From contig NC_088304.1 of assembly GCF_032854445.1 (NCBI RefSeq), positions 30,199,732 through 30,263,731 on the forward strand: a stretch of 64,000 bases of DNA, written 5' to 3'. This stretch comes from Liolophura sinensis (lineage: Eukaryota; Mollusca; Polyplacophora; Chitonida; Chitonidae). Under the pieces are notes generated by a model, which had not been told where the DNA came from, searched no databases, and was given only the letters and a program-made list of their open reading frames with translations. Position numbers and translations under genes: made by a program. This document shows positions 4,640-63,872 of the stretch, one piece after another (the first letter of the stretch is position 1; every line of letters starts with the position of its first letter).

Positions 4640-4940
4640 AGACGAGTATGAGGTGATCATATCTAACACAAGGTGGGGAGAAAGGTAGAGAGTGGGGAAG
4701 TCTTCCTGTTCTCCAGAGGTAGATGACAGCATATATGGAAACAGACATGACGTGGTCATATAAATGAAAAGTAAGAGGGGAGACAGGTACAGAGTGGTAA
4801 AGTTTTCTTGTTCTCCAGAAGTAAATGACAGCGTATGTGGAAACAGACATGAGGTGGTTATATAAACCAAAAGGAAGGGGGAGACAGGTACAGAGTGGTA
4901 AAGTTGTTCTGTTCTCTAGGAAGATGACAGCCAATGTGGA
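4640..4940 (+). repeat. About 100-bp minisatellite, three repeats (unit 1)
   Basis: Three imperfect repeats of about 100 bp. Landmarks TGAGGTGATCAT at 4649, TGACGTGGTCAT at 4748 and TGAGGTGGTTAT at 4850 set the period. Each contains a GACAGGTACAGAGTGG-like core and TTCTCCAGAAGTAAATGACAG. The long minus-strand frame across it is only a translation of the repeat. Confidence 0.8.
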
Positions 4941-5136
4941 GGACCGGTAATGTTTTTCATGCCTCTATGCCTTATAATACACTAAATAAACATTCACAGT
5001 GTTGAAATTCGGCAAAGATTGCGGCCTCCAGCGTAAATTTGGGGAGATATTTACTTATTAAGTTCACCTAAGCGGTCCCGTCTGTCACCCAAAATAGCAA
5101 AGCAAACTTCGGGCATCGCCTCATGAATATTCGGAA

Positions 5137-5156
5137 GTGACGTAGAATCGAGAAGC
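5137..5156 (+). promoter_or_regulatory. 20-bp THAP upstream motif (unit 1)
   Basis: GTGACGTAGAATCGAGAAGC, with a CRE-like TGACGT core, 66 bp before the THAP ATG. It is identical to 16558-16577 and to the reverse complement of 19861-19880. Confidence 0.6.
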
Positions 5157-5222
5157 ACCGAGTCAGGCGTCCCTTTTGTTTACTAAGCAAACAAGTTCAC
5201 ACTGTCACAAAAGATTTTGAAA

Positions 5223-5636
5223 ATGGTCCGCAGATGTTGTGCTGGTTACTGCAGTAACACGAAAGACAAGGAGAAAGGGATTTGTCTCCATATGTTCCCA
5301 CACGGCGATAAGAAAAGGCTCGATTTGTGGAACAAATTTGTGAAAACCAAACGAAAAGATTGGGTGACAGCGTCTCCAACTTCCCTGCTGTGCTCTTCAC
5401 ACTTTCGGGAAGATGATTTCTCCAACTTGGTTGAATTTAAGATGGGCTTTGTGGGTCAGCTGTATTTAAAGAACACTGCTGTACCTAGTGTTCACGGCCA
5501 AATGTCTGCCAAGCCCTCTACAAGTGGACAAGATCAGCAAGTATCCGGTGGTAAGCGTCACAGTGCAGCCACAGTGAAATTGTCAGCTCACAGGGTAGGT
5601 GACATTGTTATGTGCAACACTGTTTTGACAGCCTAA
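5223..5636 (+). CDS. THAP-domain protein exon (unit 1)
   Basis: The ATG at 5223 (GAAAATGG context) is the best start; an upstream TTG at 5217 is not needed. Unspliced it encodes 137 aa. Residues 5-89 form a THAP zinc finger: Cys-6/Cys-10, then about 46 residues, then Cys-57-x2-His-60, with the family's Pro-26, Trp-36 and a C-terminal AVPS. THAP domains are sequence-specific DNA-binding modules found in P-element and Kolobok-type transposases and in host factors. A splice donor (CAGG/GTAGGT, exon end 5594) suggests the rest of the protein lay downstream; no catalytic domain is present. It differs from the unit-2 copy by G28D and M-to-I at residue 99. Confidence 0.8.
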   Translation: MVRRCCAGYCSNTKDKEKGICLHMFPHGDKKRLDLWNKFVKTKRKDWVTASPTSLLCSSHFREDDFSNLVEFKMGFVGQLYLKNTAVPSVHGQMSAKPSTSGQDQQVSGGKRHSAATVKLSAHRVGDIVMCNTVLTA

Positions 5637-6276
5637 ATAGAAACCATATTTTAAATTAAACATTTCTGGTTGTAGGCCTAATGAAATCAAACTTCGATTC
5701 GAGCAGGTGATATTGCGGCCAACATTGTGGTAGAACACACTGTAGAAAAAGCTGTGCCGGTTCTAAGAATGTTGTTGTTGTAACATTATCCCTTCTGCAG
5801 CGTCCTTGCATAGTATGATATGCATAGCCTAAGCCAGCCTACCGCATTTTGCTGGCTGACTTATGCAGATAATTACCGTTTCATTTCTCATTTTTCTCCC
5901 TTTGGCTTAATAAGGTCAACTAGACTCGAGAACATCAAATTTTCACGATTTATTCCATGTTCATGGGGCCTTGGCGACACTTAATTGTGTATTAGCATAT
6001 CCGTATAACAATAAGCGGTCATGTTGCTAAGGGGCACAACTTGATGTACATACACACCTGGCTGGGATTAAAATCCAGCCTCAGTCAAAGTATTGTCATG
6101 ATTCTCTTGCACTCACTGTTCATGGGACATTGGTGGCTAAGCAGTTGACCACTTTGTAAATATGCAAACCTAATGATACCCTCGCTTAAAATCACTGGAC
6201 TTTTACCGCTCCTTAGTAGGTGGTGGAATAGCGACTAACACTTGCCAGAGGTTTGGTTCTCTTTGGGTTCTGAACG

Positions 6277-6354
6277 GGTCATGGCCGCGTGGCTAAGGCA
6301 CACGCCTTTAGCTGAATGGAGGCAAGAGGCTCTGGCTCAAATCCAGCCTGTCTG
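6277..6354 (+). repeat. tRNA-like segment in transposon (unit 1)
   Basis: The segment resembles a tRNA of the Leu/Ser type: ATGGCCGCGTGGCTAAGGC matches the D-arm/A-box region, and CTGGCTCAAATCCAG forms a T-arm with a 7-nt loop (B-box-like). Related partial motifs (TTCATGGGGCCTTGGTGGCT) recur near 5959, 6119 and 6390, and a second T-arm-like GGCTGGGATTAAAATCCAGC is at 6060. There is no matching acceptor stem, so it is a tRNA-derived repeat and not a tRNA gene. Confidence 0.45.
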
Positions 6355-6815
6355 ATAATTGTCATAATTCATAATACATTTTTCACACAGTTCATGGGGC
6401 CTTGGTGGCTAAGTAATTGAAGGCGCTTGCAGATCTGCTAAAGCTGGCTTTTCACCACTACAATACCCCTTTGTTGAAACTGGATATATGTATGATAATG
6501 TCATATGAAAGAGTGGCCAGCACTCACCAAAGTTTGGTGATTCCCTCCGGGTACTCCGGCTTCCTCATGTGAGCACTGTTGTTGAAGTGAAACATTCTTG
6601 TTACGGTGATAATGCCTAAAGGCAAATCAATCAATTATGAGTGAATTATTATATGCTGATTACCACAGTTATCCTGATCGCTGCCATAAGTGGCAGTACA
6701 TTTATTTACAACCAAGAAATAAACAACAAAACAAACTGGGTAAAACAACATGAATAGCTTTATGTACATTTTTTCAAATAATTTACAAGTGAAGCATGGA
6801 TATATGTTGTTATCT

Positions 6816-6978
6816 TCAGTGGGGATCCCGGTATCCAGTGCGCTGTTCTCCATCAGCCAGGGGAAATTCTTGTAAGATCTTGTGGACACAGCATGCTGGA
6901 AGAACCACACGAATTCTTTTCCCCAACCATTTCCAACACCATCTACACAGCTGGCGATATGCTACATACCGATATTGC
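6816..6978 (-). pseudogene. Orphan last exon of P2X7-domain gene (unit 1)
   Basis: Equivalent to exon 3 at 18237-18399. The acceptor AG at 6979-6980 and the reading frame are intact, encoding the C-terminal part of the P2X7 cytoplasmic domain (YRQLCRWCWKWLGKR, VVLPACCVH). The duplication boundary at 7335 cut the gene within intron 2, so exons 1-2 are missing in this unit and this exon has no promoter of its own. An AATAAA (minus) lies near 6700. Confidence 0.85.
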
Positions 6979-7335
6979 CTGCAAACTGAATTATGAATGA
7001 TAATGTACATAAATGGTCTGGTATATATCTTGTTATTTCGTTTTAACTTTGGGCATATTAAGCTAATTCAATAATTACAATAATAAGTTTATGACGAAAA
7101 CTACATTCTGCAAGTCATATTTTTTTTTTGTTTTACTGCAAACAATTTTTTTATATCCACTGCGCATGATATATGTCGTTGTAAGTAAACAAATGTCTTT
7201 GAAAATTGAATTATATGTATATATTTGTGCTACATGTATTTCAGTCATACTGGAAAGATGAATGTATGTATACTCAACTGACAAGCTATGTATCAAGGAA
7301 GTTAATAAAAGTTCTGTCAAGGACTTAATCAAACA

Positions 7336-7578
7336 GTCTTCCACCTTGTTCAATCTTTCATCTATATCAATCTCATCTGTCGATGCCAGGGCTTTGCCGC
7401 TGGCAATATTGTATGCTTCTTCTTGGCGGGCCCAGAGGGCAGTGATATGTAGTGACTCGCTGTCCTGCTTTTTAGCAATACAGCATAATAAATTTAAAAA
7501 TCCATTGATACTTAGAAAACTAATGAAAAGAGGTAAAAATATCATATTCTGTTGGAAACCAAGTCATATTGGTATGGG
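7336..7578 (+). mobile_element. LINE RNase H fragment at the start of unit 2
   Basis: Copy of 1932-2177 carried by the tandem duplication; its left edge is the duplication joint itself. Confidence 0.8.
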
Positions 7579-8778: not shown

Positions 8779-9431
8779 CCCCCGTGGGGTTTCCGGGGTG
8801 ATAAGAATAGGACCTCAGCCCTCTAGGCAAGCTTGTCGTAAAAGTCGACTAACCTAGAGCTCTCCTGTGTGAGCCCGGTGAGTATAATAGGCTCACATCT
8901 TCTCGGTTGTGTGAGAGGCAACCGGGGAGCGACCTGTTTGCCGTGGGTTGCGACCCGTAATCTCCGAGGACGGGATCCTGGTGGCTGAGGGTGTGTTGGT
9001 CTTGCGAGATCCTCACGCCCAACACTCCGCTTTGGCCCTTACTTGGAGTGAGACGGGAGGTCGGATGGGTCCGGTCCGATCAATCGGCTTGGTCACGCCT
9101 TGCCTCTGCGTGGTCCCAACATTTTTCCATGACACTATTCCTTAGAGAAATTGCTATTTCTGAAATTTCGTTTGCTTGACTACGATTGAGGCGGTGGCTC
9201 ATGGGTCAATCGAGTGGTGTGTATTTGATGTGCCACCTTCTTCTTTGCCTAAGAGACAGAGGTGCTCGTGGTGGGGAATTGGGTGTGCATGTTAAGGCCA
9301 TCTGTTCGAGTATACCTCATGTGGAGTCCTTGATGCGTTTTCCTGCTGGGTATCCCCGGGTTCAGGCATCGCCCTTGTTGGCACTCCGTGGTGGGTGGGG
9401 GACACGTGGGGTGAATTTTTATATATCTACC
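8779..9431 (+). promoter_or_regulatory. LINE 5' UTR with conserved hairpins
   Basis: The 5' end CCCCCGTGGGG can fold on itself. At about 8819-8858 the arms CTCTAGG and CCTAGAG enclose a second hairpin, GTCG-TAAAAGT-CGAC. The same block opens the copies at 30309, 39254, 48709 and 56817. By analogy with other non-LTR elements it should hold the internal promoter, but no promoter motif is proven. The in-frame extension of ORF1 upstream to a TTG at 9186 is treated as UTR. Confidence 0.6.
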
Positions 9432-10736
9432 ATGTCTTCATTAAACCTTTCCCCAAATGTTTCAAAAAAACGAAAAAACGAAGTTTTGATAGATACGGAC
9501 GGTGGGTCCAATAACTGGCCTGCCTTTATTGTCCTGTCTACAAAAAACAACACAAGACCTGCATGCAAATTGGACCCCTTCTTGCTTAAAAAATGTATAG
9601 AAGGATCGGCAGGACAAGTTAAACAAGTTAAAAAGCTTCGATCGGGCGATGTTCTGATCGAAGTATTTCGTAAACAGCAGGCTCTTAATTTAATGTCCAT
9701 AAATAAAATTGCTGATTTTACTGTTGTTGTGTCTCCTCACACAACATTAAATTCTAGTCAGGGAGTAATCCGAGATAGAGATCAGGACCTTGCCGATTTC
9801 ACCGAGGAACAGATATGTTCTGAATTAAAATCGCAAGGAGTTGTTAAAGTCAAGCGATTTACAACAAAAAAAGGCGATAACATTATAAAACTGAATACTT
9901 ATTTGCTGACTTTCAACAATCCATCTGTTCCTCAATCGATCTACATTGGCCCGTACAGTGTTCGAGTGGACCTATACATACCTAATCCAACGAGGTGCTT
10001 TACATGTCAAAAATTTGGGCATGGCAAGGGCCAATGTAGAAATCAGTTGGTGTGTTTCAGATGTGCAGGAGAAGGCCATGAGGGCTTCGACTGCACTAAA
10101 GCAATAAAATGTTTCAATTGTGGCGAAGCCCATATGGCCTCCTCTAAGGACTGTTCTCTTTTTATTAAAGAGAAACAGATTATTACATTAAAGGTGCAAA
10201 ATAACATTACTTACCTAGAAGCACGTCGCCTAATCTCCGCTCAGAGTACTCCCCTGAAAACTTCATTCGCCAATGTAGTCAAGAAAGTGTCCACATCGGT
10301 TGGCACTCAAACATCTATAACTTGGCCCATTGGTGATGACAAGCCTAAAACAATAACTCTACCACAATTAGTTAAACCTGTAAACCAACCAATGACTTCT
10401 TGTTCTACGCAGACAATACATCCCGATATCGAACGAAAGAACCATAACAGTACATCTGCTCCTGCTGATAAAAATAAATCTAAGGTGGGTCAAAAAGGGT
10501 CTAATCAACAAGATCGTAAACCTAGTGGACAATCAAACCGCCCGTCTAAGGCCACTAGGGATCCCATTCAAACTTATAATAAGTTTGGATCGTTGGAGGA
10601 CGTTGGTCCTTTAGCATCAGATGCGGATGTGATGGATACATCACCCGCATCAGGGAGATGTAACAGCCCGTCTCCAAGAAAGGGTCGTCCGCGGTCCAAA
10701 CACAAAGATAAATCTCCTATACGTCTCCCTCCATAA
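9432..10736 (+). CDS. LINE ORF1: CCHC zinc-knuckle nucleic-acid-binding protein
   Basis: 434 aa from the ATG at 9432. A basic N-terminus (KKRKNE) precedes a region of about residues 30-185 that resembles the RRM-like part of I/Jockey-type ORF1 proteins. Three Cys/His knuckles follow: residues 189-202 (CFTCQKFGHGKGQC), 208-221 (CFRCAGEGHEGFDC) and a variant at 227-241 (C-x2-C-x3-H-x6-C). The C-terminal third is Ser/Pro/Lys-rich, probably disordered. Its role is RNA binding and particle formation for retrotransposition. The stop codon overlaps the ORF2 start (TAATG at 10734-10738). A longer frame opens at TTG 9186, but it lacks an ATG and lies in the UTR. Confidence 0.9.
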   Translation: MSSLNLSPNVSKKRKNEVLIDTDGGSNNWPAFIVLSTKNNTRPACKLDPFLLKKCIEGSAGQVKQVKKLRSGDVLIEVFRKQQALNLMSINKIADFTVVVSPHTTLNSSQGVIRDRDQDLADFTEEQICSELKSQGVVKVKRFTTKKGDNIIKLNTYLLTFNNPSVPQSIYIGPYSVRVDLYIPNPTRCFTCQKFGHGKGQCRNQLVCFRCAGEGHEGFDCTKAIKCFNCGEAHMASSKDCSLFIKEKQIITLKVQNNITYLEARRLISAQSTPLKTSFANVVKKVSTSVGTQTSITWPIGDDKPKTITLPQLVKPVNQPMTSCSTQTIHPDIERKNHNSTSAPADKNKSKVGQKGSNQQDRKPSGQSNRPSKATRDPIQTYNKFGSLEDVGPLASDADVMDTSPASGRCNSPSPRKGRPRSKHKDKSPIRLPP

Positions 10737-12526
10737 TGGCGATATACGATAAAATTATACAATGGAATTGTCGAGGTCTTAATGTAAATTTTGTTGAAAT
10801 AACACAGCTTGTTCAATCTTTAAATCCAGCTGCCCTCTGTCTTCAGGAAACTCACCTGAAGACATCTGACAAAGATAAATTATCTCTTAAAAATTATTCT
10901 TTATACAGTACCTATTCTAATGATGAAGAGAGAGCTTGTGGTGGCTCCTCTATCTTTATCAATAATAATATTATTCATAGCCCTGTTGCTCTTGATACGG
11001 AGCTCCAGGCTGTTGCCGTACGTGTTTCTTTGTCTGAAACCATTACATTATGTTCTGTTTATATTCCTCCTCGTTCTTCCATGACAGCTTCCCAACTGCA
11101 TAATTTAACAGAACAGTTACCTAAACCTTTTATAATAATGGGTGATTTTAATGCCCATAACCCCCTATGGGGCAGTGATAACATAAATGATAAGGGCAGA
11201 CAACTCGAAAACTTTTTATCTTCTGATGGACTGTGTTATTTCAATGATGGTTCTAATACCTATTTACATCCTGGTAATGGTTCATATTCTGCTATTGATC
11301 TCACTATCGCGGATCCATCACTTCTCCTGGATTTTTCTTGGAAGGTGTATGATGATCTTTGTGGTAGTGACCATTTTCCTATTATCCTAGAGCATCTCAC
11401 GTCTAATTCCCTAGAACGTATAGCTAGGTGGAAGTTCGATAAGGCAGACTGGATGGCATTTGAGATGTTCTGTGAGGCTGACATCACTCCAGAGAATCTC
11501 AATGCTGCAGAAGATCCTCTTTTAAAATTTAATGGACTTATATTAACAGCAGCTGATAGAACCATACCTAAGACCTCGACAAATCCAAAATCCAAAAGTA
11601 AACCCTGGTACGACGATGACTGTCGCAAAGCCATAAAGGATCGCAAAAAGGCCGAGCGCAGATTTAATCATTGTCCTGATAATAATAATTTAAACCAGGT
11701 CCGTATATTCGGAGCTAAGGCTCGCCGATTAATTAAGTCTAAGAGACGTTCTTGTTGGCGGAACTTTGTTTCAGGCATTACGTCAAAAACACCCATGCGT
11801 AAGGTCTGGAACATTGTTCAGAAGCTTAGGGGCAAAAACAACAAAGCCAAAATTCAGCATTTAAAAGATGGCGATACCCTATTAACATCGCCATCTGAAA
11901 TAGCGAATAAACTAGCTAAAACAATATCTCAGAAATCTTCTTCTGAGAATTACACTCCTGAGTTTCGAAGTATTAAAAAACATAAGGAGAAAATTAAATT
12001 GCCTTTTTCTTCTAAGAACTTAGAAGATTATAATCGTCGTTTTTCAATTGAGGAACTTAAAACTTCTCTTAAAAAGGCACACGATACTGCGTGTGGCCCT
12101 GATAATATATATTATAAGCTTCTGAACCATTTACCACCTAAGCCTCTGGAGACTCTCTTAGATTTACTTAATGACATTTGGCAAACTGGTAATTTTCCGC
12201 CGACTTGGAGGGAGGCGTGTATTATCCCGGTCCCTAAACCGGGTAAGGATCATACTGATCCAAATAATTACCGTCCCATAGCTCTTACCAGCTGTGTCTG
12301 TAAGACTATGGAACGGATGATAAATGATAGGCTTGTTTGGTTTCTTGAAACCAACAAGTTACTATCTAATATACAATGTGGTTTTCGTCAAGGTCGATCT
12401 ACTTTAGATTACCTTGTCCGTTTCGAAACTTTTATTCGTGACGGTTTTATTAATAATGAACATGTGGTGTCGATATTTTTGACCTTGAAAAAGCCTACGA
12501 CACCACATGGAAATATGGTATTTTAA
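10736..12526 (+). CDS. LINE ORF2, N-terminal part: endonuclease and start of reverse transcriptase
   Basis: The ATG at 10736 shares its A with the ORF1 stop. Residues about 5-225 are an apurinic/exonuclease-endonuclease-phosphatase domain, with IQWNCRG, LQETH, GDFNAHNPLWGS, SAIDLTI and GSDHFPI; it nicks the target DNA. A basic linker follows, then the first RT motifs (CGPDNI, YRPIALTS, GFRQGRSTLD). Comparison with the copy at 41160-41200 shows one base missing between 12480 and 12481, just before the RT motif A aspartate. The true frame is lost there and the ORF ends after some 16 wrong codons at 12526. The copy is therefore disabled unless the shift is bypassed. Confidence 0.9.
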   Translation: MAIYDKIIQWNCRGLNVNFVEITQLVQSLNPAALCLQETHLKTSDKDKLSLKNYSLYSTYSNDEERACGGSSIFINNNIIHSPVALDTELQAVAVRVSLSETITLCSVYIPPRSSMTASQLHNLTEQLPKPFIIMGDFNAHNPLWGSDNINDKGRQLENFLSSDGLCYFNDGSNTYLHPGNGSYSAIDLTIADPSLLLDFSWKVYDDLCGSDHFPIILEHLTSNSLERIARWKFDKADWMAFEMFCEADITPENLNAAEDPLLKFNGLILTAADRTIPKTSTNPKSKSKPWYDDDCRKAIKDRKKAERRFNHCPDNNNLNQVRIFGAKARRLIKSKRRSCWRNFVSGITSKTPMRKVWNIVQKLRGKNNKAKIQHLKDGDTLLTSPSEIANKLAKTISQKSSSENYTPEFRSIKKHKEKIKLPFSSKNLEDYNRRFSIEELKTSLKKAHDTACGPDNIYYKLLNHLPPKPLETLLDLLNDIWQTGNFPPTWREACIIPVPKPGKDHTDPNNYRPIALTSCVCKTMERMINDRLVWFLETNKLLSNIQCGFRQGRSTLDYLVRFETFIRDGFINNEHVVSIFLTLKKPTTPHGNMVF

Positions 12527-12540
12527 AGGACCTTTCTGAT

Positions 12541-14430
12541 ATGGGTCTTAAAGGCCGCTTACCATTTTTTATATCTGAATTTCTATCTGATCGTCAGTTT
12601 AAGGTACGGGTGGGGTCCACTCTTTCTGATTCGCATGAGCAGGAGATGGGTGTTCCCCAGGGCAGTATTCTTTCGCCAACACTGTTCAGCATAAAAATTA
12701 ATAGCTTAGCTAAAACGTTGACATCTGGCACTGAGGGTTCTTTATACGTCGATGATTTCCTCATATGCTACCGTGCTAAAAATATGAATAACATCGAGCG
12801 GCAACTGCAGCTTTGTCTCAACAAGATTGAGAAATGGGCAGTTGCCAACGGTTTTAGATTTTCTACATCTAAAACCGTCGGTATGCATTTCTGTAATAAA
12901 CGGAAACTTCATCTAGACCCTGAGCTTAAATTTTGTGGAGAACCAGTGAAGATTGTTGGGGAAAATAAATTTTTAGGGGTTATATTTGATAAAAAATTAT
13001 CCTTTATACCTCATATAAAAATGCTTAAGGCTAAATGTACAAAGGCTCTCGATATAATAAAGGTCGTGTCTAGTACCGATTGGGGTGCTGACCGATCAGT
13101 TTTACTTAATTTATATCGTTCTTTGGTGAGGTCTAAATTGGACTATGGGTCCATCATTGATGGTTCCGCAGGGAAATCCTATCTTAAAATGTTGGATCCC
13201 GTCCATCACCAAGGTTTGAGGCTCAGCCTTGGTGCTTTTAGAACCTCACCAGTAGAAAGTTTATACGTGGAGGCAAATGAGCCTTCTTTATATAACCGAC
13301 GTATAAAACTTAGCCTTCAATATGTTACAAAGCTTAAAGCACATCCAACAAACCCTGCCTACGACTGTGTTTTCAATCCATTGTTTGTAGACAAATATAC
13401 TAAATGTCCTAATAAGATCCCTTCGTTCGGTCTTCGTATACGGGACCATATTGTGGGAGCTAACATCAAGCTGGAAGATATAGCTCCGGTGTCTTTTTCG
13501 GAGTCTCCTCCATGGCTTCTCCCACAACCTAAACTAATATTTGATCTACGTAAATATAATAAATCGAATATAAATCCTCTTATAATTCAGCAAGGTTTTG
13601 CTGAAATTAAAGCTAGTTATATGGATTATAAATTTATATATACTGACGGGTCGAAGGATGAGGACAGGGTTGCGACTGCGGCTGTCATGGAGCAGCGAGT
13701 CTCTTCCTTTCGTCTCCCATCCTCTTCTTCAATATTCTCTGCCGAGGCCAGAGCTATACTCCTGGCCTTATCATATGTTTCTTCTGGGCATGCCCAGAGG
13801 GCAATGATATGCACTGACTCGTTGTCTTCCTTATTGGCAATACAGAATAATAAATTTAAAAATCCCTTGATCCTTCAAATTTTAGCTATACATAGGAAAT
13901 TAATTAGAAGAGGTAAAGATATTATATTCTGCTGGATACCAAGTCATATTGGTATCCATGGAAACACAGTCGCAGACAGGGAGGCGAAAGCTGCCCTAAA
14001 TAAACCCATATCTAAGATAAAAATCCCTTATACTGACATGAAGTCGAATATTCTTAAATATATTCGTGGCCTTTGGCAGGGTGAATGGAACTTGCAGGCC
14101 CATAATAAACTGCATGCTATTCATCCGGTCATTGGCTATAATTCATATACACTTAATATGTCTCGTAGAGACCAAGTCGTTTTAACCAGATGCCGTATTG
14201 GACATTCTCATCTGACACACAATTTCATCTTGGATGGGAGCAGTGCTCCCGAGTGTGTTGGATGTGATGCTCAATATGGCATCAAACATATTCTGGTTGA
14301 CTGTGTAGACTTTGCCCATGTTCGGCAGAGATTCTACACGGTCAACTCTATATATGATTTATTTGACAGCATCGCTGGCGATGTTGTCATAAATTATTTG
14401 AAGGCCATTGGCCTATATCATAAAATATAA
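12541..14430 (+). CDS. LINE ORF2, C-terminal part: reverse transcriptase core, RNase H, CCHC tail
   Basis: This frame continues ORF2 after the 1-nt deletion at 12480/12481; the ATG at 12541 is internal Met, not a natural start. Reading from it, the RT has MGVPQGSILSPTLF (about residues 36-49) and the catalytic YVDD at 69-72. RNase H follows with YTDGS, SAEARA, CTDS and VADREA carrying the four acidic catalytic positions, plus WIPSHIGIHGN. The C-terminus has C-x2-C-x7-H-x4-C (CVGC...H...C), typical of the I/R1 group. The product would copy LINE RNA at the nicked target. Confidence 0.9.
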   Translation: MGLKGRLPFFISEFLSDRQFKVRVGSTLSDSHEQEMGVPQGSILSPTLFSIKINSLAKTLTSGTEGSLYVDDFLICYRAKNMNNIERQLQLCLNKIEKWAVANGFRFSTSKTVGMHFCNKRKLHLDPELKFCGEPVKIVGENKFLGVIFDKKLSFIPHIKMLKAKCTKALDIIKVVSSTDWGADRSVLLNLYRSLVRSKLDYGSIIDGSAGKSYLKMLDPVHHQGLRLSLGAFRTSPVESLYVEANEPSLYNRRIKLSLQYVTKLKAHPTNPAYDCVFNPLFVDKYTKCPNKIPSFGLRIRDHIVGANIKLEDIAPVSFSESPPWLLPQPKLIFDLRKYNKSNINPLIIQQGFAEIKASYMDYKFIYTDGSKDEDRVATAAVMEQRVSSFRLPSSSSIFSAEARAILLALSYVSSGHAQRAMICTDSLSSLLAIQNNKFKNPLILQILAIHRKLIRRGKDIIFCWIPSHIGIHGNTVADREAKAALNKPISKIKIPYTDMKSNILKYIRGLWQGEWNLQAHNKLHAIHPVIGYNSYTLNMSRRDQVVLTRCRIGHSHLTHNFILDGSSAPECVGCDAQYGIKHILVDCVDFAHVRQRFYTVNSIYDLFDSIAGDVVINYLKAIGLYHKI

Positions 14431-16351: not shown

Positions 16352-16355
16352 TTGA
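16352..16355 (+). repeat. Left target duplication of DNA transposon (TTGA, from TTAA)
   Basis: TTGA borders the left inverted repeat, where TTAA borders the right one (20065-20068). The paralogous uninterrupted site at 45171-45174 is TTAA, so TTGA is best read as a later A-to-G change. Confidence 0.7.
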
Positions 16356-16369
16356 AGTAAAGGACCGGT
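16356..16369 (+). repeat. Left terminal inverted repeat
   Basis: AGTAAAGGACCGGT, matching 20051-20064 in inverted orientation at all 14 positions. Beyond it the ends diverge. Confidence 0.9.
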
Positions 16370-16557
16370 AATGTTTTTCATGCCTCTATGCCTTATAATA
16401 CACTAAATAAACATTCACAGTGTTGAAATTCGGCAAATATTGCGGCCTCCAGCGTAAATTTGGGGAGATATTTACTTATTAAGTTCACCTAAGCGGTCCC
16501 GTCTGTCGCCCAAAATAGCAAAGCAAACTTCGGGCATCGCCTCATGAATATTCGGAA

Positions 16558-16577
16558 GTGACGTAGAATCGAGAAGC
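16558..16577 (+). promoter_or_regulatory. 20-bp motif upstream of THAP gene
   Basis: GTGACGTAGAATCGAGAAGC, 66 bp before the THAP ATG, with a CRE-like TGACGT core. The identical sequence, inverted, lies 45 bp before the ATG of the P2X7-domain gene. It is probably a core-promoter or transposase-binding site common to both genes. Confidence 0.7.
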
Positions 16578-16643
16578 ACCGAGTCAGGCGTCCCTTTTGT
16601 TTACTAAGCAAACAAGTTCACACTGTCACAAAAGATTTTGAAA

Positions 16644-17057
16644 ATGGTCCGCAGATGTTGTGCTGGTTACTGCAGTAACACGAAAGACAAGGAGAAAGGG
16701 ATTTGTCTCCATATGTTCCCACACGACGATAAGAAAAGGCTCGATTTGTGGAACAAATTTGTGAAAACCAAACGAAAAGATTGGGTGACAGCGTCTCCAA
16801 CTTCCCTGCTGTGCTCTTCACACTTTCGGGAAGATGATTTCTCCAACTTGGTTGAATTTAAGATGGGCTTTGTGGGTCAGCTGTATTTAAAGAACACTGC
16901 TGTACCTAGTGTTCACGGCCAGATATCTGCCAAGCCCTCTACAAGTGGACAAGATCAGCAAGTATCCGGTGGTAAGCGTCACAGTGCAGCCACAGTGAAA
17001 TTGTCAGCTCACAGGGTAGGTGACATTGTTATGTGCAACACTGTTTTGACAGCCTAA
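16644..17057 (+). CDS. THAP-domain protein exon (transposase N-terminus candidate)
   Basis: The ATG at 16644 (AAAATGG) opens 137 codons, of which the first 124 are exon if the donor at 17016 (CAGG/GTAGGT) is used, in phase 0. Residues 5-89 are a THAP C2CH finger: Cys-6/Cys-10, Cys-57-x2-His-60, His-27, Pro-26, Trp-36 and AVPS at 86-89. In P-element and Kolobok transposases this finger binds the transposon ends; by position inside TTAA-type inverted repeats that is the most economical role. No downstream exon with a DDE/RNase H-like fold is seen before 18237, so the catalytic part seems deleted. A stand-alone THAP repressor of the element is an alternative. Confidence 0.8.
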   Translation: MVRRCCAGYCSNTKDKEKGICLHMFPHDDKKRLDLWNKFVKTKRKDWVTASPTSLLCSSHFREDDFSNLVEFKMGFVGQLYLKNTAVPSVHGQISAKPSTSGQDQQVSGGKRHSAATVKLSAHRVGDIVMCNTVLTA

Positions 17058-17697
17058 ATAGAAACCATATTTTAAATTAAACATTTCTGGTTGTAGGCCT
17101 AATGAAATCAAACTTCGATTCGAGCAGGTGATATTGCGGCCAACATTGTGGTAGAACACACTGTAGAAAAAGCTGTGCCGGTTCTAAGAATGTTGTTGTT
17201 GTAACATTATCCCTTCTGCAGCGTCCTTGCATAGTATGATATGCATAGCCTAAGCCAGCCTACCGCATTTTGCTGGCTGACTTATGCAGATAATTACCGT
17301 TTCATTTCTCATTTTTCTCCCTTTGGCTTAATAAGGTCAACTAGACTCGAGAACATCAAATTTTCACGATTTATTCCATGTTCATGGGGCCTTGGCGACA
17401 CTTAATTGTGTATTAGCATATCCGTATAACAATAAACGGTCATGTTGCTAAGGGGCACAACTTGATGTACATACACACCTGGCTGGGATTAAAATCCAGC
17501 CTCAGTCAAAGTATTGTCATGATTCTCTTGCACTCACTGTTCATGGGACATTGGTGGCTAAGCAGTTGACCACTTTGTAAATATGCAAACCTAATGATAC
17601 CCTCGCTTAAAATCACTGGACTTTTACCGCTCCTTAGTAGGTGGTGGAATAGCGACTAACACTTGCCAGAGGTTTGGTTCTCTTTGGGTTCTGAACG

Positions 17698-17775
17698 GGT
17701 CATGGCCGCGTGGCTAAGGCACACGCCTTTAGCTGAATGGAGGCAAGAGGCTCTGGCTCAAATCCAGCCTGTCTG
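17698..17775 (+). repeat. tRNA-like segment in transposon (unit 2)
   Basis: Counterpart of 6277-6354, with A-box-like GTGGCTAAGGC and T-arm CTGGCTCAAATCCAG. It lies between the two convergent genes, in about 1.2 kb without other recognisable content, perhaps where the transposase body was lost. Confidence 0.45.
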
Positions 17776-18121
17776 ATAATTGTCATAATTCATAATACAT
17801 TTTTCACACAGTTCATGGGGCCTTGGTGGCTAAGTAATTGAAGGCGCTTGCAGATCTGCTAAAGCTGGCTTTTCACCACTACAATACCCCTTTGTTGAAA
17901 CTGGATATATGTATGATAATGTCATATGAAAGAGTGACCAGCACTCACCAAAGTTTGGTGATTACCTCCGGGTACTCCAGCTTCCTCATGTGAGCACTGT
18001 TGTTGAAGTGAAACATTCTTGTTGCAGTGATAATGCCTAAAGGCAAATCAATCAATTATGAGTGAATTATTATATGCTGATTACCACAGTTATCCTGATC
18101 GCTGCCATAAGTGGCAGTACA

Positions 18122-18127
18122 TTTATT
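18122..18127 (-). terminator. Poly(A) signal of P2X7-domain gene
   Basis: AATAAA on the minus strand (TTTATT on +), about 110 bp past the TGA at 18237. Confidence 0.55.
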
Positions 18128-18236
18128 GACAACCAAGAAATAAATAACAAAACAAACTGGGTAAAACAACATGAATAGCTTTATGTACATTTTTTCAAAT
18201 AATTTACAAGTGAAGCATGGATATATGTTGTTATCT

Positions 18237-19815
18237 TCAGTGGGGATCCCGGTATCCAGTGCGCTGTTCTCCATCAGCCAGGGGAAATTCTTGTAAGATC
18301 TTGTGGACACAGCATGCTGGAAGAACCACACGAATTCTTTTCCCCAACCATTTCCAACACCATCTACACAGCTGGCGATATGCTACATACCGATATTGCC
18401 TGCAAACCAAATTATGAATGATAATGTACATAAATGGTCTGGTATATATCTTGTTATTTCGTTTTAACTTTGGGCATATTAAGCTAATTCAATAATTACA
18501 ATAATAAGTTTATGACGAAAACTACATTCTGCAAGTCATATTTTTTTTTTGTTTTACTGCAAACAATTTTTTTATATCCACTGCGCATGATATATGTCGA
18601 TGTAAGTAAACAAATGTCTTTGAAAATTGAATTATATGTATATATTTGTGCTACATGTATTTCAGTCATACTGGAAAGATGAATGTATGTATACTCAACT
18701 GACAAGCTATGTATCAAGGAAGTTAATAAAAGTTCTGTCAAGGACTTAATCAAACAGTATCCGTTGCATTTTTTCTGACATGAGCATGATGAACTAACAG
18801 CTTAGAGGTACATGTATGCAAAGCGAGGAGTCCTGTGGTGAGGACAATGCTCTCGATATGCTTTCAAAATGTGTTCTAGCCGTGGAGCTTGAGACCAAGT
18901 GTTTTATAAATAACAGCATAATCCCTCTTTCCACATATAGGCCACAGGCACTTGATACCGATACATAGAATGACAACAAAATATATAGGCCCCTATGCTG
19001 TATATGCAGCTATATATGTATGGCCCTTCATCGGTACCAAGTGCCTGTGATATAGGTCAACTTTTGTCAAACATGGAATCACATTAAAAAGTAAAGCCTC
19101 GCTACATTCTCAAAATTTCAACCTGGGATGTTGTACTTACGAATTATGGGTCAAATTCATTGGTCCATACTGTTGCCTATACACATAGTAAGCCGTTTCC
19201 AGCACATCCCTATCCAGAACAACAGACTGAAAACCTGGGTGCTCTGTTATGCACTTCGGTTTTTCATCCCCGGGTGCCAACTCGATCCTATCCACCACTC
19301 TGGAAATTTCTTGGCAGCAAATGCATTCCTCTTGTGAATCCAGCGGATGACACTGACCACAAGTACACCTGGAACGAATGGAGAATATAAGCATATAGAC
19401 CTAGTTACTAACGCAGGGCAAATAACCAAAACAGCGCCTGGGTTGGCCATAAGCCTATTATAAAAATATCACGCTTGGACATTTTGAGATAAGGTGGAAT
19501 AAGTTGGGATCTAACGCTATGCTTATTTTATGACACAATATATGAACATTACGATTAAATAGAAAACTTGTACCATTCAGTGTTCTCACGTCGGTCAGGA
19601 CCCTCAGGCTCAATGTCCGTGACATTTCCTTCCACCTCGGGTGTCTCGTCTCCGTCCGATGACCACTCTGGTTCGAACATATACGGGTTTATGTCCAAAG
19701 TAGTAGCTTTGCAGGTGTCTACCTCTTCATCAAAGTCCGCATTTCCATCACTGCTACTGCTGCTCTCCATACTTTTCGACAAAAGACTCGACTCCTCGTA
19801 TTCAGCATCAGCCAT
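18237..19815 (-). CDS. P2X7 cytoplasmic ('ballast')-domain protein, 3 exons, 210 aa
   Basis: Exon 1 is 19815-19574, exon 2 19368-19141, exon 3 18399-18237 (633 nt, 210 aa). Introns start GT (GAATG/GTACAA; AATTC/GTAAGT) and end AG (TTCCAG; TTTGCAG); phases 2 and 2 agree. Joining exons 1 and 2 creates WCTCGQC (residues 81-87), the hallmark of the P2X7 intracellular domain. ECICCQE (95-101), KCITEHPGF (119-127), YRQQYG (144-149), WCWKWLG (170-176) and LPACCVHKI (183-191) follow. In P2X7 this domain binds zinc and guanine nucleotide; free-standing versions are common in invertebrates, of unknown role. The acidic Ser-rich N-terminus contains NPYMFEPEW (43-51). There is no transmembrane segment, so this is not a channel. 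The start has good context (AAGAAATGG). It lies inside the transposon with THAP. Confidence 0.85.
18936..19054. repeat. Imperfect inverted repeat in intron 2 of P2X7-domain gene
   Basis: Arms of about 25 bp (CACAGGCACTTGATACCGAT at about 18943; reverse complement ATCGGTACCAAGTGCCTGTG at 19030) enclose some 67 nt. This could be a small hairpin element or an RNA structure. Confidence 0.6.
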
Positions 19816-19860
19816 TTCTTTTGTTTTAGTACATGTGGCCCAGTAGCTGCCTGAAGACCG

Positions 19861-19880
19861 GCTTCTCGATTCTACGTCAC
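19861..19880 (-). promoter_or_regulatory. 20-bp motif upstream of P2X7-domain gene
   Basis: GCTTCTCGATTCTACGTCAC on +, an exact 20/20 reverse complement of 16558-16577. It lies 45 bp upstream of the ATG at 19815. Confidence 0.7.
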
Positions 19881-20050
19881 GGGTCAAAGGTCATATCCCT
19901 GCTGAGCTGGGCGACTCGAACTCGGGGCTACTCGCCGTGGGGCACTTAATTAAGCTTAATTGACCCTAATTTAGCGAATTGTTTAAAACGGCTTATGGGG
20001 ATTAGTTTTGGTAACCCTGTTCAGTATTATTAATCTCGGGAAGCCCACTC

Positions 20051-20064
20051 ACCGGTCCTTTACT
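20051..20064 (-). repeat. Right terminal inverted repeat
   Basis: ACCGGTCCTTTACT on +, the exact reverse complement of the left end, followed by TTAA. Confidence 0.9.
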
Positions 20065-31170: not shown

Positions 31171-33718
31171 CCCTCCCGGGGTGAAAAGAATAGGACCTCA
31201 GCCCTCTAGGCAAACTTGTTTTAAACTAGTAATATTTCGATAAATGGTAATTTGCCACCATCATGGAGGGATACGTGCATCATCCCGGTCCCCAAACCGG
31301 ATAAGGATCATAGTGAGCCGTCTTCCCATAGCTCTTACCAGTTGTGTCTGTAAGACAATCGGAAGATAAATGATAGACCTGTTTGGCTTTTTGAATAACC
31401 AAGTTACTTTCTACTATACAATGTAGCATTCGGCATGGTCGATAAACTTCAGATCACTGTCCGATTTAAAACCTTCTTGCGGGATTGTTTTATAAATAAT
31501 GAAGATGTGTTATCGATATTTTTCAAAAGGCATATTATACGACATGCAAATATGGCATTCTAAAAAAACTTTTAAGAAATGAAGCTCAAGAGCCATTTAC
31601 CATTATTTTTATCTGATCGGCAGTTTAAGGTACAGGTGCGATCCACTTTATCTGAATCTATGAGCAAGAGATGGGTGTACCCCAGGGCAGTATTTTATCA
31701 CCAACTGTGTTTAGCCTCAAAATAGCTTCACCAACACTTTGTCATCGGGCACAGAGGGTTCTTTATATGTTGATGATTTCCTTATATGCTACCGCGCTAA
31801 AAATATAAATAATATCGAACGTCAGTTGCAGCTTTGTCTCAATAAAATCGAGAAATGGGCAACTGAAAACGGTTTTAGATTTTCAACGTCTAAAACCGTC
31901 GGTATACATTTTTGTAACAAACGGAAACTTCATCTTGATCCCGAGCTTAATTTTTGTGGTGAACAGGTTAAAATTGTTGGAGAAACTAAATTTTAGGTAT
32001 AATATTTGATAGTAAGCTATCTTTTATACCTCATATAAAAATGCTAAAAGCTAAATGTACAAAGGCTCTCGATATAATGAAGGTCGTGTCTAGCACCGAT
32101 TGGGGTGCTGACCGATCAGTTTTACTCAGTTTATATCGTTCTCTGGTGAGGTCTAAATTGAACTATGGATCCATCATTTACGGTTCCGCTAGGAAGTCGT
32201 ATATTAAAATGTTGGATCCTGTTCATCACCAAGGTTTGAGGCTCAGCCTTGGTGGTTTTAGAACCTCACCAGTAGAAAGTTTGTACGTGGAGGCAAATGA
32301 ACCTTCTTTATATAACCGACGTATAAAACTTAGCCTTCAATATGCTACAAAGCTTAAAGCTCATCCAACAAACCCTGCCTACGACTGTGTTTTCAATCCA
32401 TTATATGTAGACAAATATACTAAATGTCCTTACAAGATCCCTTCCTTCCGTCTTCGTATACGGGACCATATTGTGGGAGCTAACATCAAGCTGGAGGATA
32501 TAGCTCTTGTGTCTTTTCCGGAGTCTCCTCCCTGGCTTCTTCTACAACCTAAACTAATATTTGATCTACGTAAATATAATAAATCAAATACAAATTCTCT
32601 TATAATTCAGCAAAGTTTTGCGGAAATCAAGGCTGATTATATGGTTTATATATTTATATGTACTGACGGGTCAAAGGATGGGGACAGGGTTGCGTCTTCG
32701 GCTGTCTTAGGGCAGCGGGTCACTTCTCTTCGTCTGCCACCTTCATCTTCTATCTTTTCTGCAGAGGCAAGGGCTATACTCCTGGCCTTATCATATGTTT
32801 CCTCTGGGCATGCCCAGAGGTCAGTAATATCCATCTACTCGCTGTCTTGCCTTTTGGCGATTCAGAATAATAAATTTAAAAATCCATTTATACTTGAGAT
32901 CATAGCCAAACACCGAAAACTAATTAAAAGAGGTAAAGATATTATTTTCTGTTGGATATCAAGTCACACTGGTATCCATGGAAACACAGTCGTGGACAGG
33001 GAAGCGAAAGCTGCCCTATATAAACTTGTATCTCGGGTTAAAATCCCTTATACTGACGTGAAGTCTAGTATTCTTAAATATATTAGTCGCCTTTGGCAGG
33101 GTGAATGGGACTGGCGGATCCACAATAAACTGCATGCCATCCATCCTGTCATTGGCTACAAAGCCAATACTTGTTAAATGTCTCACAGAGACCAAGTAGT
33201 TTTAACGAGGTGTCTTATTGGACATTCTCATCTGACACACACTTTCATACTCGATGGGAGCAGTGCTTCCGAGTGTGTTGGATGTTCTGCTCAATATGGC
33301 ATCAAACATATCTCGGTTCACTGTGTAGACTTTGCCCATGTTCGGCAAAGGTTCTACACAGTCAACTCTGTATATGATTTATTTGACAGCATCGCTGGCG
33401 ATGTTGTCATAAAATATTTGAAGGCCATTGGCCTATATCATAAAATATAAATTTTAATTGTCTGAAATATTTATAGATAAAAGTTATACACATACAGCTT
33501 TCCAGATATACTATTTTTTAATATGATGTTTTTCGAGTTTTAACTGTTTTGGTGTTTTCTTATCTGATTTTAAACATGTCTGTACTTTTTGTTTGATTTT
33601 TGATGTTCATATTGTCATTTCGAAAACCTTAACCGTCTCATGATTTCACCTTATTCTCGCCACGATATGGCTGAAATATTGCCGATGTGGCGTTAAGCCA
33701 TAATCATTCATTCATTCA
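31171..33718 (+). mobile_element. LINE copy: 5' UTR fused to RT, RNase H and 3' tail
   Basis: Starts with the LINE 5' end (CCTCCCGGGGTGAAAAGAATAGG) and after about 40 bp jumps into the RT region, losing ORF1 and the endonuclease. Frames: 31739-31996 (YVDDFLICYRA), 32041-33177 (RT thumb and RNase H, TDGSKDGD, SAEARA, VVDREA), 33178-33450 (CVGC tail). A 1-nt deletion in the T run at 31988-31995 and a stop at 33177 break ORF2. Ends CATTCATTCATTCC at 33718. Confidence 0.85.
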
Positions 33719-60335: not shown

Positions 60336-61439
60336 TCATCTGTACAGTCCATAGTCTCTAGGTTTTGTTGTTTCTGTTGGAAGTAAGGTACACATCTGCT
60401 TTAGATGACTAACACTAACTTTGACGTTTGCATCTCTAGGAACCAGCTGAGAATTTGGAATTTTAAGAATATAGGATGGCGTTCCTGCCTGTCGAATCAC
60501 TGTGGCTTTGGTTTGCACTTGTTTCATTATCCACACTTCCTGTCCTTACTTAGGGAGTGGCTTCGATTTGTGTAGATTATCGAAGTTACGTTTCTGTCTC
60601 TCCTTCTGCTTTTGGTCGGCTGATTCTACGTTTTTCCCATGCCAATCGGGAACAAGTGTAGAAGGCAAAACTGGAACTTTAGTTCTGAGTTTTCTTCCCA
60701 TCAGTTCAGTAGGCGTAAATCCATTTTGAAGAGGAGTAGAATGGTAACTTAACATGGCTAGGTAAGGATCATCCGCTTTGTTAAGAAGTCCTTTATCTGT
60801 CTCCACTGCTCTCTCAGCTTCATTGTTACCCAAACGGTAATGCGGGCTGCTGATTGTATGACGAAATCCGTATTTATCACCGAATTTCGCAAAATCACCC
60901 GACGAGAATTGAGGACCATTGTCGGATGCGACCAATTCAGGAATCCCATGTCTTGAGAATATGGATTTCAGGTGTTCAATAACACGCACAGATGTGGTCG
61001 ATGTCAAGTAGGCAATCTCAATGAACCGTGAATAGTAACCTACAACCACAAGATAGCTGTTCTTTTTCCACTCAAACAAGTCCATCCCTACGTTTTGTCA
61101 AGGATAGTCAAGTGTTTTTGAAGATAGTAATGGTTCCGCTTTTTGTTTTCTTTCTTTCGCACAAAATGAACAGTTTTCTACATTAGTCTTCAAGTCCACT
61201 GAAAGTCTTGGCCACCACACAGAAGTTTGAGCTAGAGCACGACACTTTACGATGCCCTGGTGTCCTGTATGCAACTTATAAAGTATGTTGCGTCTCAACA
61301 CTTCCGGAATCACTAGCCTACTGTTGAATAGCAGTAGCCCTTGTTGAACCGTCAGTTCATGTCTTACACACCAGTATCGGCGTAACTGTTTATCTGTCTT
61401 GGCTGAACTGGGCCATTCAGTCAAACAGTATTCCATCAC
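60336..61439 (-). pseudogene. Gypsy integrase region
   Basis: 61098-61439 contains the zinc-binding H-H-C-C part (HTGHQG, NCSFC). 60546-61085 holds the DDE core: MDLFEW, SDNGPQF and NNEAERAVE carry the three acidic residues. 60336-60536 is the C-terminal part (VWIMKQVQ-like, SYIL). The three share a frame but are separated by in-frame stops at 61098-61100 and 60546-60548. The enzyme would join the cDNA to host DNA; this copy cannot make it whole. Confidence 0.85.
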
Positions 61440-62188
61440 TCATCCTTCAGTTTAGCTCGAATCTGGTTCAGACGATTTTCTGAAGCAGGCATGGTTTCAA
61501 TAACAACATTGACAAACATATTAGTTTCGTTTTCCTGCACGAAATCACTATCATCTGGTCGACTTACTGGAGCACTTGAAAATGTAGCTAGGTTTTTCCC
61601 AGCTGTATATTTCACCTCATACATAAATCGCACCAGTCTCATCCTCAAACGCTGTAATCTTGGTGGCAATTCGTCCAGTTTAGTATTGAGCAACGCTATT
61701 AGGGGTTTGTGATTAGTGTCTATCTCAAAACACTTCAAACCAACCAGAAAGTCCGCAAACTTCTCGCATGACCAAGTCACGACCAATGTTTCGCGTTCCA
61801 CCTGTGCGTGTCTTTGCTCAGTGGCAGTCAAAGAACGTGAGGCATAAAACACTGGTCTCCAGTCTCCCTTTTCCAGTTGGAGAAGAACGGATCCAAGGCC
61901 GTAGGACGACGCGTCACGAGAGACTTTGGTGGGAAGTTTAGCATTGTAAAGAGCAAGCACTGGCGCTGTACTCAGAGCCTTCTTAACCTGTACAAAAGCA
62001 GTCTCTTGAAGAGCTCGCCATACCAACTGATTATCCTTCACTAGTAGGCCGCGTAACGATTTTGTAGTTTCGGCTAAGTTCTTAGCAAATTTCCCAACGT
62101 GAATATCCATTCCAAGAAGTCGACGAATCTCGGTCACGTTTGTCGGTCTAGGAAGTTTCTCAATTGCCGCAACTTTTGCCGGACCCAT
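61436..62188 (-). pseudogene. Gypsy RT end and RNase H
   Basis: Starts at the RT connection (RRLLGMDIHVGKF), then RNase H with SRDASSYGLGSVLLQ, VERETLV and FEIDTNHKPL. It is in frame with the upstream RT but cut by a TAG at 62219-62221, and out of frame with the integrase downstream. Confidence 0.85.
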
Positions 62189-62218
62189 GGCTATGCCATT
62201 CTTCGAAATTTTGTGACC

Positions 62219-63007
62219 CTAAAGTTTGATTTCCTGCTTAGAAAACTCACATTTGTTGTTGAGCGTTAAACCTGCATTCTGTAACCTCGTTAAGACAATG
62301 TTCAGTCTTTCATCATGCTGCTGTTGATTACAGCCGGAAATCAGCACATCATCGATGTCACAAATTACACCCGGAATGCCTTCTAACAACTGAAACATTC
62401 TCTTGTGAAACACTTCAGGTCCGTTTGAAATTCCAAAACATAAACGTTGAAAACAGAAGCGACCAAATGGTGTGATGAAACTTGTCAATGGTTGCGACTC
62501 TTCGTCCAGGGGAACTTGATGAGATCCACTGTTACAATCAAGCTTTCAAAACACACTGGCACCCCACAGTTGTGCTAATAACTGATCAATAACTGGAAGC
62601 AGATAGTTTTCTTGAAGAACGCTTTCATTAAGTTTCGTGAGATCAACGCATACTCTCAACTGTCCATTAGCTTTTGGCACTACAGCAATTGGCGCGCACC
62701 ACTCCGTTGGTTTGTGAATTTGTCTAATGACCCCTAAAGCCTTCATTCGGTGTAATTCATCCTTGAGCTTTGACATCAAACGAAGAGCGAGGCGTCTTGG
62801 CGTAGACACAGCAAACGGGACGGCATGTGGTTTCAGGCGAATTTTGTAGCTCTTATTCAATTTACCCAGTGCTGAGAATAACTTAGGATAACGCAAGCTG
62901 TACTTCTCATTAGAGCTGCGTGTCTCGTCAATAACATTGACGCGTTGTAGAAGTTTGAGCGCTGTGATAGCAGGTCGGCCTAATAATGGTTCTCTCGGAC
63001 TATTCAC
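62219..63007 (-). pseudogene. Gypsy reverse transcriptase core
   Basis: 62546-63007 carries the first RT motifs (RQIHKPTEWCAPIAVV, RVCVDLTKLN). 62219-62488 has FCFQRLCFGISNGPEVFHKR and the catalytic box CDIDDVLISG. A TGA at 62546-62548 divides them in frame. Confidence 0.85.
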
Positions 63008-63035
63008 TACACAAACAGTTTGTTCAGTGTTCTGT

Positions 63036-63512
63036 CTATTTCTGGAAAGAATTGTATCGAATTCTCCTCGTACAAAAAAGCTGTCTGCCGCCTGGTCCGA
63101 ATAACTTTTTCACAGTTTTCCTCAGCGACAAATTCATATCAGAAATGAGTCCAGCTGGAATCACAGCTACGTCAGCTCTTGTATCTACTTTGAATGTCAC
63201 AGTCTTTTTATCTCCAACCTTAACTTCAACATTCCACGGATTTTCACTGCCGTCTGTTACGGGTCCAAGAAACGCGCAATTACTGTTCTGGCTCACGTTT
63301 CCTACAATACGTGAATACGGACATCTAACAGCAAAATGTCCAATTTTGGAGCACTTGTGACAAGTAGCGTCTTTCTCTGGACAGTTTTCATATCTTTGTG
63401 GTTTTCTGCCACACCGATTACAAGACTTGGATTGTGACGTTTTTTGAAGATTGACGCTTGTGTTTACGTTTGTGAAAATCTCTCTGTTTGTGACTTTGCA
63501 ATTTGTCAACAT
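63036..63512 (-). pseudogene. Gypsy nucleocapsid knuckles and protease
   Basis: CNRCG, then a CHKCSKIGHFAVRC knuckle, followed by a retropepsin-like segment in which the catalytic DTG is DTR (VDTRADVAVIP). That change alone should inactivate the protease. Confidence 0.8.
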
Positions 63513-63872
63513 CTACGGATGCACCGGCGTCATTATTTGACATTGTTTTAGCCTGACTTTTGGATGACTCGTACGCTCTGCAAATTTCTTTGCAACGGGC
63601 TAATGTGAGCTTTTTGTCCTCTAAGAGTTTTTCTCGGACAGCAGCCTCTCTCAAACCTACCACTACCTGGTCGCGTATCACCCTGTCCTCCATGTTGTTC
63701 AAATTACATGTTTTTACCAGCTTCCTCAGAGCAGCAATATAAGCGTCAATTCTCTCTGACGGTTCTTGACATCTCTGACATCTAATTTACGTGGAACAGG
63801 TATATTTGCAGTATACCGCCTAGGTTGTGGCAGAGGATCATCGCCTTCACTGTCAGGGTCATTTGTAGCCAT
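63418..63872 (-). pseudogene. Gypsy gag region
   Basis: A likely start ATG at 63872 (MATNDPDSEGDD) and the capsid-end segment DRVIRDQVVVGL and LEDKKLTLARCKEICRAYE are in different frames, split near 63730. It overlaps the knuckle frame at its end. Confidence 0.7.

Follow-up and report, generated by a model that had tools for sequence, protein, structure and literature searches.

The window, a stretch of 64,000 nucleotides from the genome of the chiton Liolophura sinensis, contains a 3.7-kb DNA transposon at positions 16356-20064. The first-pass annotation had reported 14-bp inverted ends between TTGA and TTAA flanks, and both the ends and the flanks are exactly as described (Table 1). Inside the element, an exon for a THAP domain lies on the plus strand and a gene for the intracellular domain of P2X7 runs towards it on the minus strand. 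We call the second gene KolX, after the gene that accompanies the transposase in Kolobok elements of the Kol0 group (Kojima & Bao, 2022; PMC9587614).

Table 1. Features of the transposon and of its truncated duplicate, in window positions. C2, C4, C11 and C16 are other genomic contexts of the element (see text).
Feature	Position	Strand	Basis or remark
Left target-site copy	16352..16355	.	TTGA, i.e., TTAA with one change; left TTAA in the C2, C11, C4 and C16 copies
Left terminal inverted repeat AGTAAAGGACCGGT	16356..16369	+	Exact; also recovered genome-wide
First exon of the Kolobok transposase (THAP domain)	16644..17015	+	ATG at 16644; PF05485, E 8e-14; exon end chosen by eye at GT 17016-17017
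Internal deletion junction	17332..17334	.	Alignment to the C4 copy
KolX exon 3, including stop codon	18237..18399	-	PF20478
KolX exon 2	19141..19368	-	Bears six of the seven conserved cysteines
KolX exon 1, acidic and serine-rich	19574..19815	-	Low model confidence
Right terminal inverted repeat ACCGGTCCTTTACT	20051..20064	-	Exact
Right target-site copy TTAA	20065..20068	.	Sequence
Second, truncated element copy	4940..7337	+	99.3% identity to 16361-18758

The three KolX exons are open and joined across GT-AG introns; the first-pass annotation had read the gene as complete. The 210-aa product matches the Pfam family P2RX7_C (PF20478, E 5e-17) and is identical over its full length (100%) to an NCBI protein of L. 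sinensis named "P2X purinoceptor 7-like". The predicted fold is that of the P2X7 ballast domain, with residues 9-72 modeled at a predicted local distance difference test score (pLDDT) below 50. In alignment with human P2X7, cysteines C82, C84, C87, C98, C120 and C186 each fall on a cysteine. KolX proteins have been described as resembling human P2X7 residues 476-595, with seven conserved cysteines (PMC9587614).

A search of the 609-Mb assembly for TTAA followed by the 14-bp end, with up to one mismatch, returned 25 matches (3 for the reversed pattern), and all 25 fall on copies of this element. There are two matches each in contexts C2, C4, C10 (the window copy) and C11; the other 17 lie in the C16 array and make up eight full pairs plus a single unpaired end. 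The left 645 bp of the element matches 16 rows in the assembly. Where both inverted ends are present at TTAA, the copies measure 3,020 bp including the TTAA (C2), 3,739 bp (C11), 2,294 bp (C16) and 9,397 bp (C4, pieced together from two adjoining stretches); the left ends in C11 and C4 have one mismatch each. In aligned blocks, the window copy is 94-99% identical to the others. Two aligned C16 copies are 99.96% alike, and we therefore treated C16 as a single context that local duplication has multiplied. Near-identical short copies are arrayed there between 0.5 and 436 kb, partly at a spacing of ~23.7 kb, and the C16 insertion now belongs to a larger unit that was amplified.

THAP and P2RX7_C sequence, complete or fragmentary, is present in each of the five contexts in which the ends occur. 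This supports the proposal of the first-pass annotation that the P2X7-domain protein is a second gene of a mobile element; ends without the P2X7-domain gene, which would have told against it, did not turn up in the assembly. The state of KolX differs among the copies. There is a stop in exon 1 in C11, where a 342-bp insert also interrupts the second intron. Exon 3 is cut in C2. The C16 copy has lost exon 3 together with the end of exon 2, and its THAP exon carries a frameshift. In C4 each of the three exons, read as exons only, is open. The C11 insert (L009 6673-7015) lies between 14-bp direct repeats CATCGGTACCAAGT and has the appearance of a short interspersed nuclear element (SINE). The second copy within the window belongs to a segmental duplication; it is missing the beginning of its left end as well as the right part, where KolX exons 1 and 2 would lie.

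Only one of the copies read (C2, C4, C10, C11 and two C16 units) has the middle that the others are missing. This is the 9.4-kb C4 copy, in which transposase exons and P2RX7_C occur together. Its exons between the THAP exon and KolX hold GGDGRADSPGHSAKYGTYT, VTDRH, DIWHVAKG, an H-H-C-H stretch and QTSSLEGFH, which we interpret respectively as the first and second D, the DxxH motif, the H2CH finger and the final E of a Kolobok transposase. Motifs of these types are given in PMC9587614 and PMC6004289; the exact residues were assigned by motif in this analysis. Joined, the C4 pieces match a Mutator-like transposase family (PF20700, E 1.6e-12); tested singly, two of the five have no Pfam match at E up to 1. 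The only close match to the transposase exon in the assembly is C4, and the next best is 42% identical.

Alignment to C4 pairs window element 342-981 with C4 3994-4614 and 983-3717 with C4 10442-13177 (oriented coordinates). The two are collinear from both ends, and the window copy lacks ~5.8 kb that would include the catalytic exons of the transposase. Deletions in the C11, C2 and C16 copies are different and larger, and ~124 bp are absent from C4 itself, among them the beginning of the THAP exon. Judged by this alignment, the window copy arose by internal deletion and retains its two ends, the THAP exon and an open KolX. The plus-strand THAP exon of the first-pass annotation thus stands, but not its status as a separate gene: it is exon 1 of a transposase whose catalytic exons have been deleted.

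The association extends beyond close relatives of the window copy (family 1). The assembly has 48 KolX matches, 29 of them at 89-99% identity on family-1 copies (one is the truncated duplicate in the window) and 19 at 31-48% elsewhere, where we read three loci. Two diverged families, one of them broken, have the same layout of a THAP-transposase gene and a convergent KolX. The family 2 element at C10:50.4-57.5 kb spans 7.05 kb with its TTAA, and TTAA-AGGAATACTGTCAAG at one end lies opposite the exact complement and TTAA at the other. It encodes a THAP exon (PF05485, E 7e-14), four transposase pieces (15.5 bits, below the Pfam curated cut-off of 26.5) with stretches matching the DDE, DxxH and H2CH motifs of C4, and KolX on the opposite strand (PF20478, E 6e-7). 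Its similarity to a copy at C8:52.68 Mb starts exactly at the TTAA. That copy has KolX; no transposase piece was found in the stretch read, nor was a second end. At the family 3 locus (C13:2.61 Mb) we identified a THAP domain (E 2e-10), stop-broken transposase pieces in which the first-D stretch is missing, and KolX exons (tblastn E 2e-12; no Pfam match at 0.01). TTAA inverted ends were looked for at this locus and not found. Around it, at C13 2.56-2.63 Mb, stop-broken Kolobok-KolX copies are clustered ~10 kb apart.

To count the pairing, 19 transposase-exon matches were reduced to 18 loci by merging two from one C11 locus. They were compared with 30 of the 48 KolX positions, one per locus and two for the C11 locus at 21.8 Mb; the rows left out represent additional exons of loci already counted. 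A convergent KolX match lies within 10 kb at 10 of the 18 loci, four of which are units of a single C13 cluster. In any orientation the figure is 12 of 18, the additional two having KolX on the wrong side, in neighboring C13 units.

The Kolobok type fits the features of these families. The C2, C4, C11 and C16 copies have a duplicated TTAA, one at either end (TTGA/TTAA in the window), and the 5'-RR/YY-3' termini take the form AG...CT in families 1 and 2. A THAP domain is present in families 1, 2 and 3. The DDE, C/DxxH and H2CH features are present in C4 (GGDGR, TDRH, DIWH, the H-H-C-H stretch and SSLEGFH) and deleted from the window copy. KolX, with its similarity to the P2X7 ballast, is the feature of Kol0. 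Termini of piggyBac elements begin CC and are not of the 5'-RR/YY-3' kind; piggyBac was considered for its TTAA and rejected because the chiton ends begin AG. The P element duplicates 8 bp of target; considered for its THAP domain, it was rejected because the copies have a 4-bp TTAA. The use of 5'-RR/YY-3' termini to separate Kolobok from piggyBac follows PMC9587614.

We consider it very probable that this is a chiton cut-and-paste transposon of the Kol0 type with a THAP-DDE transposase and a convergent KolX, and that the window holds a non-autonomous derivative of it. As reconstructed from the copies, the complete element comprises a multi-exon THAP-DDE transposase, a convergent three-exon KolX on the other strand, and 14-bp inverted ends at TTAA.

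The copies might instead be segmental duplications of one locus. The second copy in the window does belong to such a duplication and the C16 copies are arrayed as nearly identical units, but the surroundings of the five contexts make this explanation of the family very improbable. Flanks of ~1.2-4.7 kb on each side of the C10, C11, C2, C16 and C4 copies were compared in ten pairs, and none has collinear similarity adjoining the element; the flank matches that occur are repeats at other distances. Moreover, joining the C16 flanks over a single TTAA gives a sequence that matches element-free repeats within the window. The best of these, at 33401-33639 (87%) and 510-749 (86%), were aligned over 245 columns and have TTAA where the flanks meet. 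Since the empty counterparts carry one TTAA, the C16 copy inserted into a repeat at TTAA and duplicated it. Just as hard to credit is the chance capture of a host P2RX7_C gene by one transposon copy. NCBI does carry the product as an ordinary gene, yet P2RX7_C exons occur in every context of the ends, the convergent layout recurs in two further diverged families of the same genome, and the same pairing has been published for Kol0 (PMC9587614). Slightly less remote, and still unlikely, is that the window KolX is a domesticated host gene under selection, with the transposon remains around it incidental. C10 is alone among the copies read in having an open KolX with the transposase lost, and Nanor has been named a likely domesticated KolX (PMC9587614). 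The window copy is nevertheless too close to the other copies to favor this, and silent changes are not in excess over coding changes: comparison with the C11, C2 and C16 copies gives silent/coding counts of 0/7, 0/2 and 1/5 for KolX, and of 1/4, 1/4 and 1/6 for the THAP exon. Changes among family-1 copies are too few for a codon comparison to reveal selection.

Several observations weigh against the Kol0-type reading or narrow it. KolX has more coding than silent change per site (pN > pS) in all three family-1 comparisons, on few changes, so that constraint is not apparent. Its decay across these copies fits dead cargo and leaves a function there unsupported. Eight of the 18 transposase-exon loci have no convergent KolX within 10 kb (six have none, and two only a non-convergent C13 neighbor). 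No intact autonomous family-1 copy was found among those read, as C4 lacks the start of the THAP exon. The assignment of the transposase to Kolobok draws on motifs and layout, and the mobility of the element and the action of KolX are likewise inferred from sequence.

If these are Kol0-type transposons, the THAP finger would bind near the element ends, and the DDE core would cut at TTAA and join the element to a new TTAA. Incomplete gap repair after excision could produce internal deletions like that of the window copy. Because deletion copies keep both ends, they could be mobilized in trans by transposase made elsewhere. KolX would be a small zinc protein acting in trans. A partner of the transposase is its most likely role because KolX is conserved across phyla, lies beside the transposase, and combines a zinc-binding fold with an acidic N-terminus. 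We lean towards a positive cofactor, with limited confidence, and regard a regulator or repressor as improbable. More doubtful still is the idea that derivatives without transposase and with an open KolX are favored because KolX acts in trans, as helper or brake, on Kolobok transposition. If KolX does act in trans, the ballast fold would have served in regulating transposition before its adoption as the tail of a receptor. We found no functional work on KolX in the literature on Kolobok and KolX, the P2X7 ballast and Nanor. The chiton family offers material for testing the role of KolX in transposition.

The relationships of KolX were explored with a tree of 35 rows (34 hand-picked KolX-type proteins and the human P2X7 tail; midpoint-rooted for drawing only). 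The tree mixes phyla, and the chiton protein clusters with proteins of loach and grouper and one further protein (support 96/93). Such mixing would be expected of old transposon lineages or of horizontal moves. The P2X7 tail, whose terminal branch is 5.18 changes per column, is not placed by this tree. Viral contigs gave 49 stretches matching the pattern of the KolX alignment, none of which was confirmed as a relative by tblastn. Three fish proteins labelled "P2X purinoceptor 7-like" (P0010, P0035 and P0036; 171-189 aa) resemble KolX, and look like KolX rather than receptors because they are too short for receptors. Invertebrate and fish genes with this annotation may often be transposon genes.

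The window is also rich in retrotransposon sequence. A non-LTR (long terminal repeat) retrotransposon occupies 9180-14430, with further pieces to 60 kb and many partial or rearranged copies; its endonuclease, reverse transcriptase and RNase H frames were identified by eye. The C16 transposon copy sits in a relative of the downstream part of this element. LTR-retrotransposon-like frames for zinc knuckles, reverse transcriptase and integrase, also identified by eye, lie on the minus strand at 60546-63786.

The first-pass annotation knew of no description of the pairing between transposon and P2X7-domain gene. The pairing is real, and was already published in 2022 together with an origin for the P2X7 tail, P2X7 having arisen via fusion with KolX (PMC9587614). 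According to that paper, the membership of these proteins in Kolobok had not been pointed out before. This analysis adds the chiton families, the series of deletions, an empty insertion site and a demonstration inside a single genome; this family is not described in the literature we found on chitons with Kolobok or on transposable elements of L. sinensis. The Kol0 elements (Kolobok-1_XT group) share TTAA, RR...YY termini, a DDE transposase and a KolX with P2X7 ballast similarity with the elements reported here. The latter differ in their chiton host and in the loss of the catalytic exons from the window copy, and the likeness is one of motifs and layout. The Xenopus XKol Kolobok (ten full-length copies of ~6.8-13.9 kb) has the same THAP, DDE and H2CH motifs, AG ends and TTAA, and the main text of its description does not contain "P2X" (PMC6004289). 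In KolobokP, as in the chiton, the transposase is followed downstream by a second gene on the opposite strand, but that gene encodes a His-Me nuclease and the element has long terminal direct repeats (PMC9587614). No long direct repeat showed at the ends in comparisons of the chiton copies, which were not a search aimed at one.

The ballast domain was described across animals by Rump et al. (2020; PMC7016195), who treated free-standing domains as genes; "transpos" is absent from the main text. They report an Ixodes protein in which the domain is fused to one printed "TAHP", which we take to be THAP, and two markers linked to free-standing ballast-domain genes from sponge to urchin, a linkage they call "ancestral synteny". 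This could be linkage inside Kolobok elements or their remains. Compared with the P2X7 receptor, whose C-terminal ballast domain is predicted to share its fold, KolX lacks the channel part and has an acidic first exon modeled at low confidence. The chiton elements provide independent support for the claim of one 2022 paper that the cytoplasmic tail of P2X7 is the DNA-transposon domain KolX.

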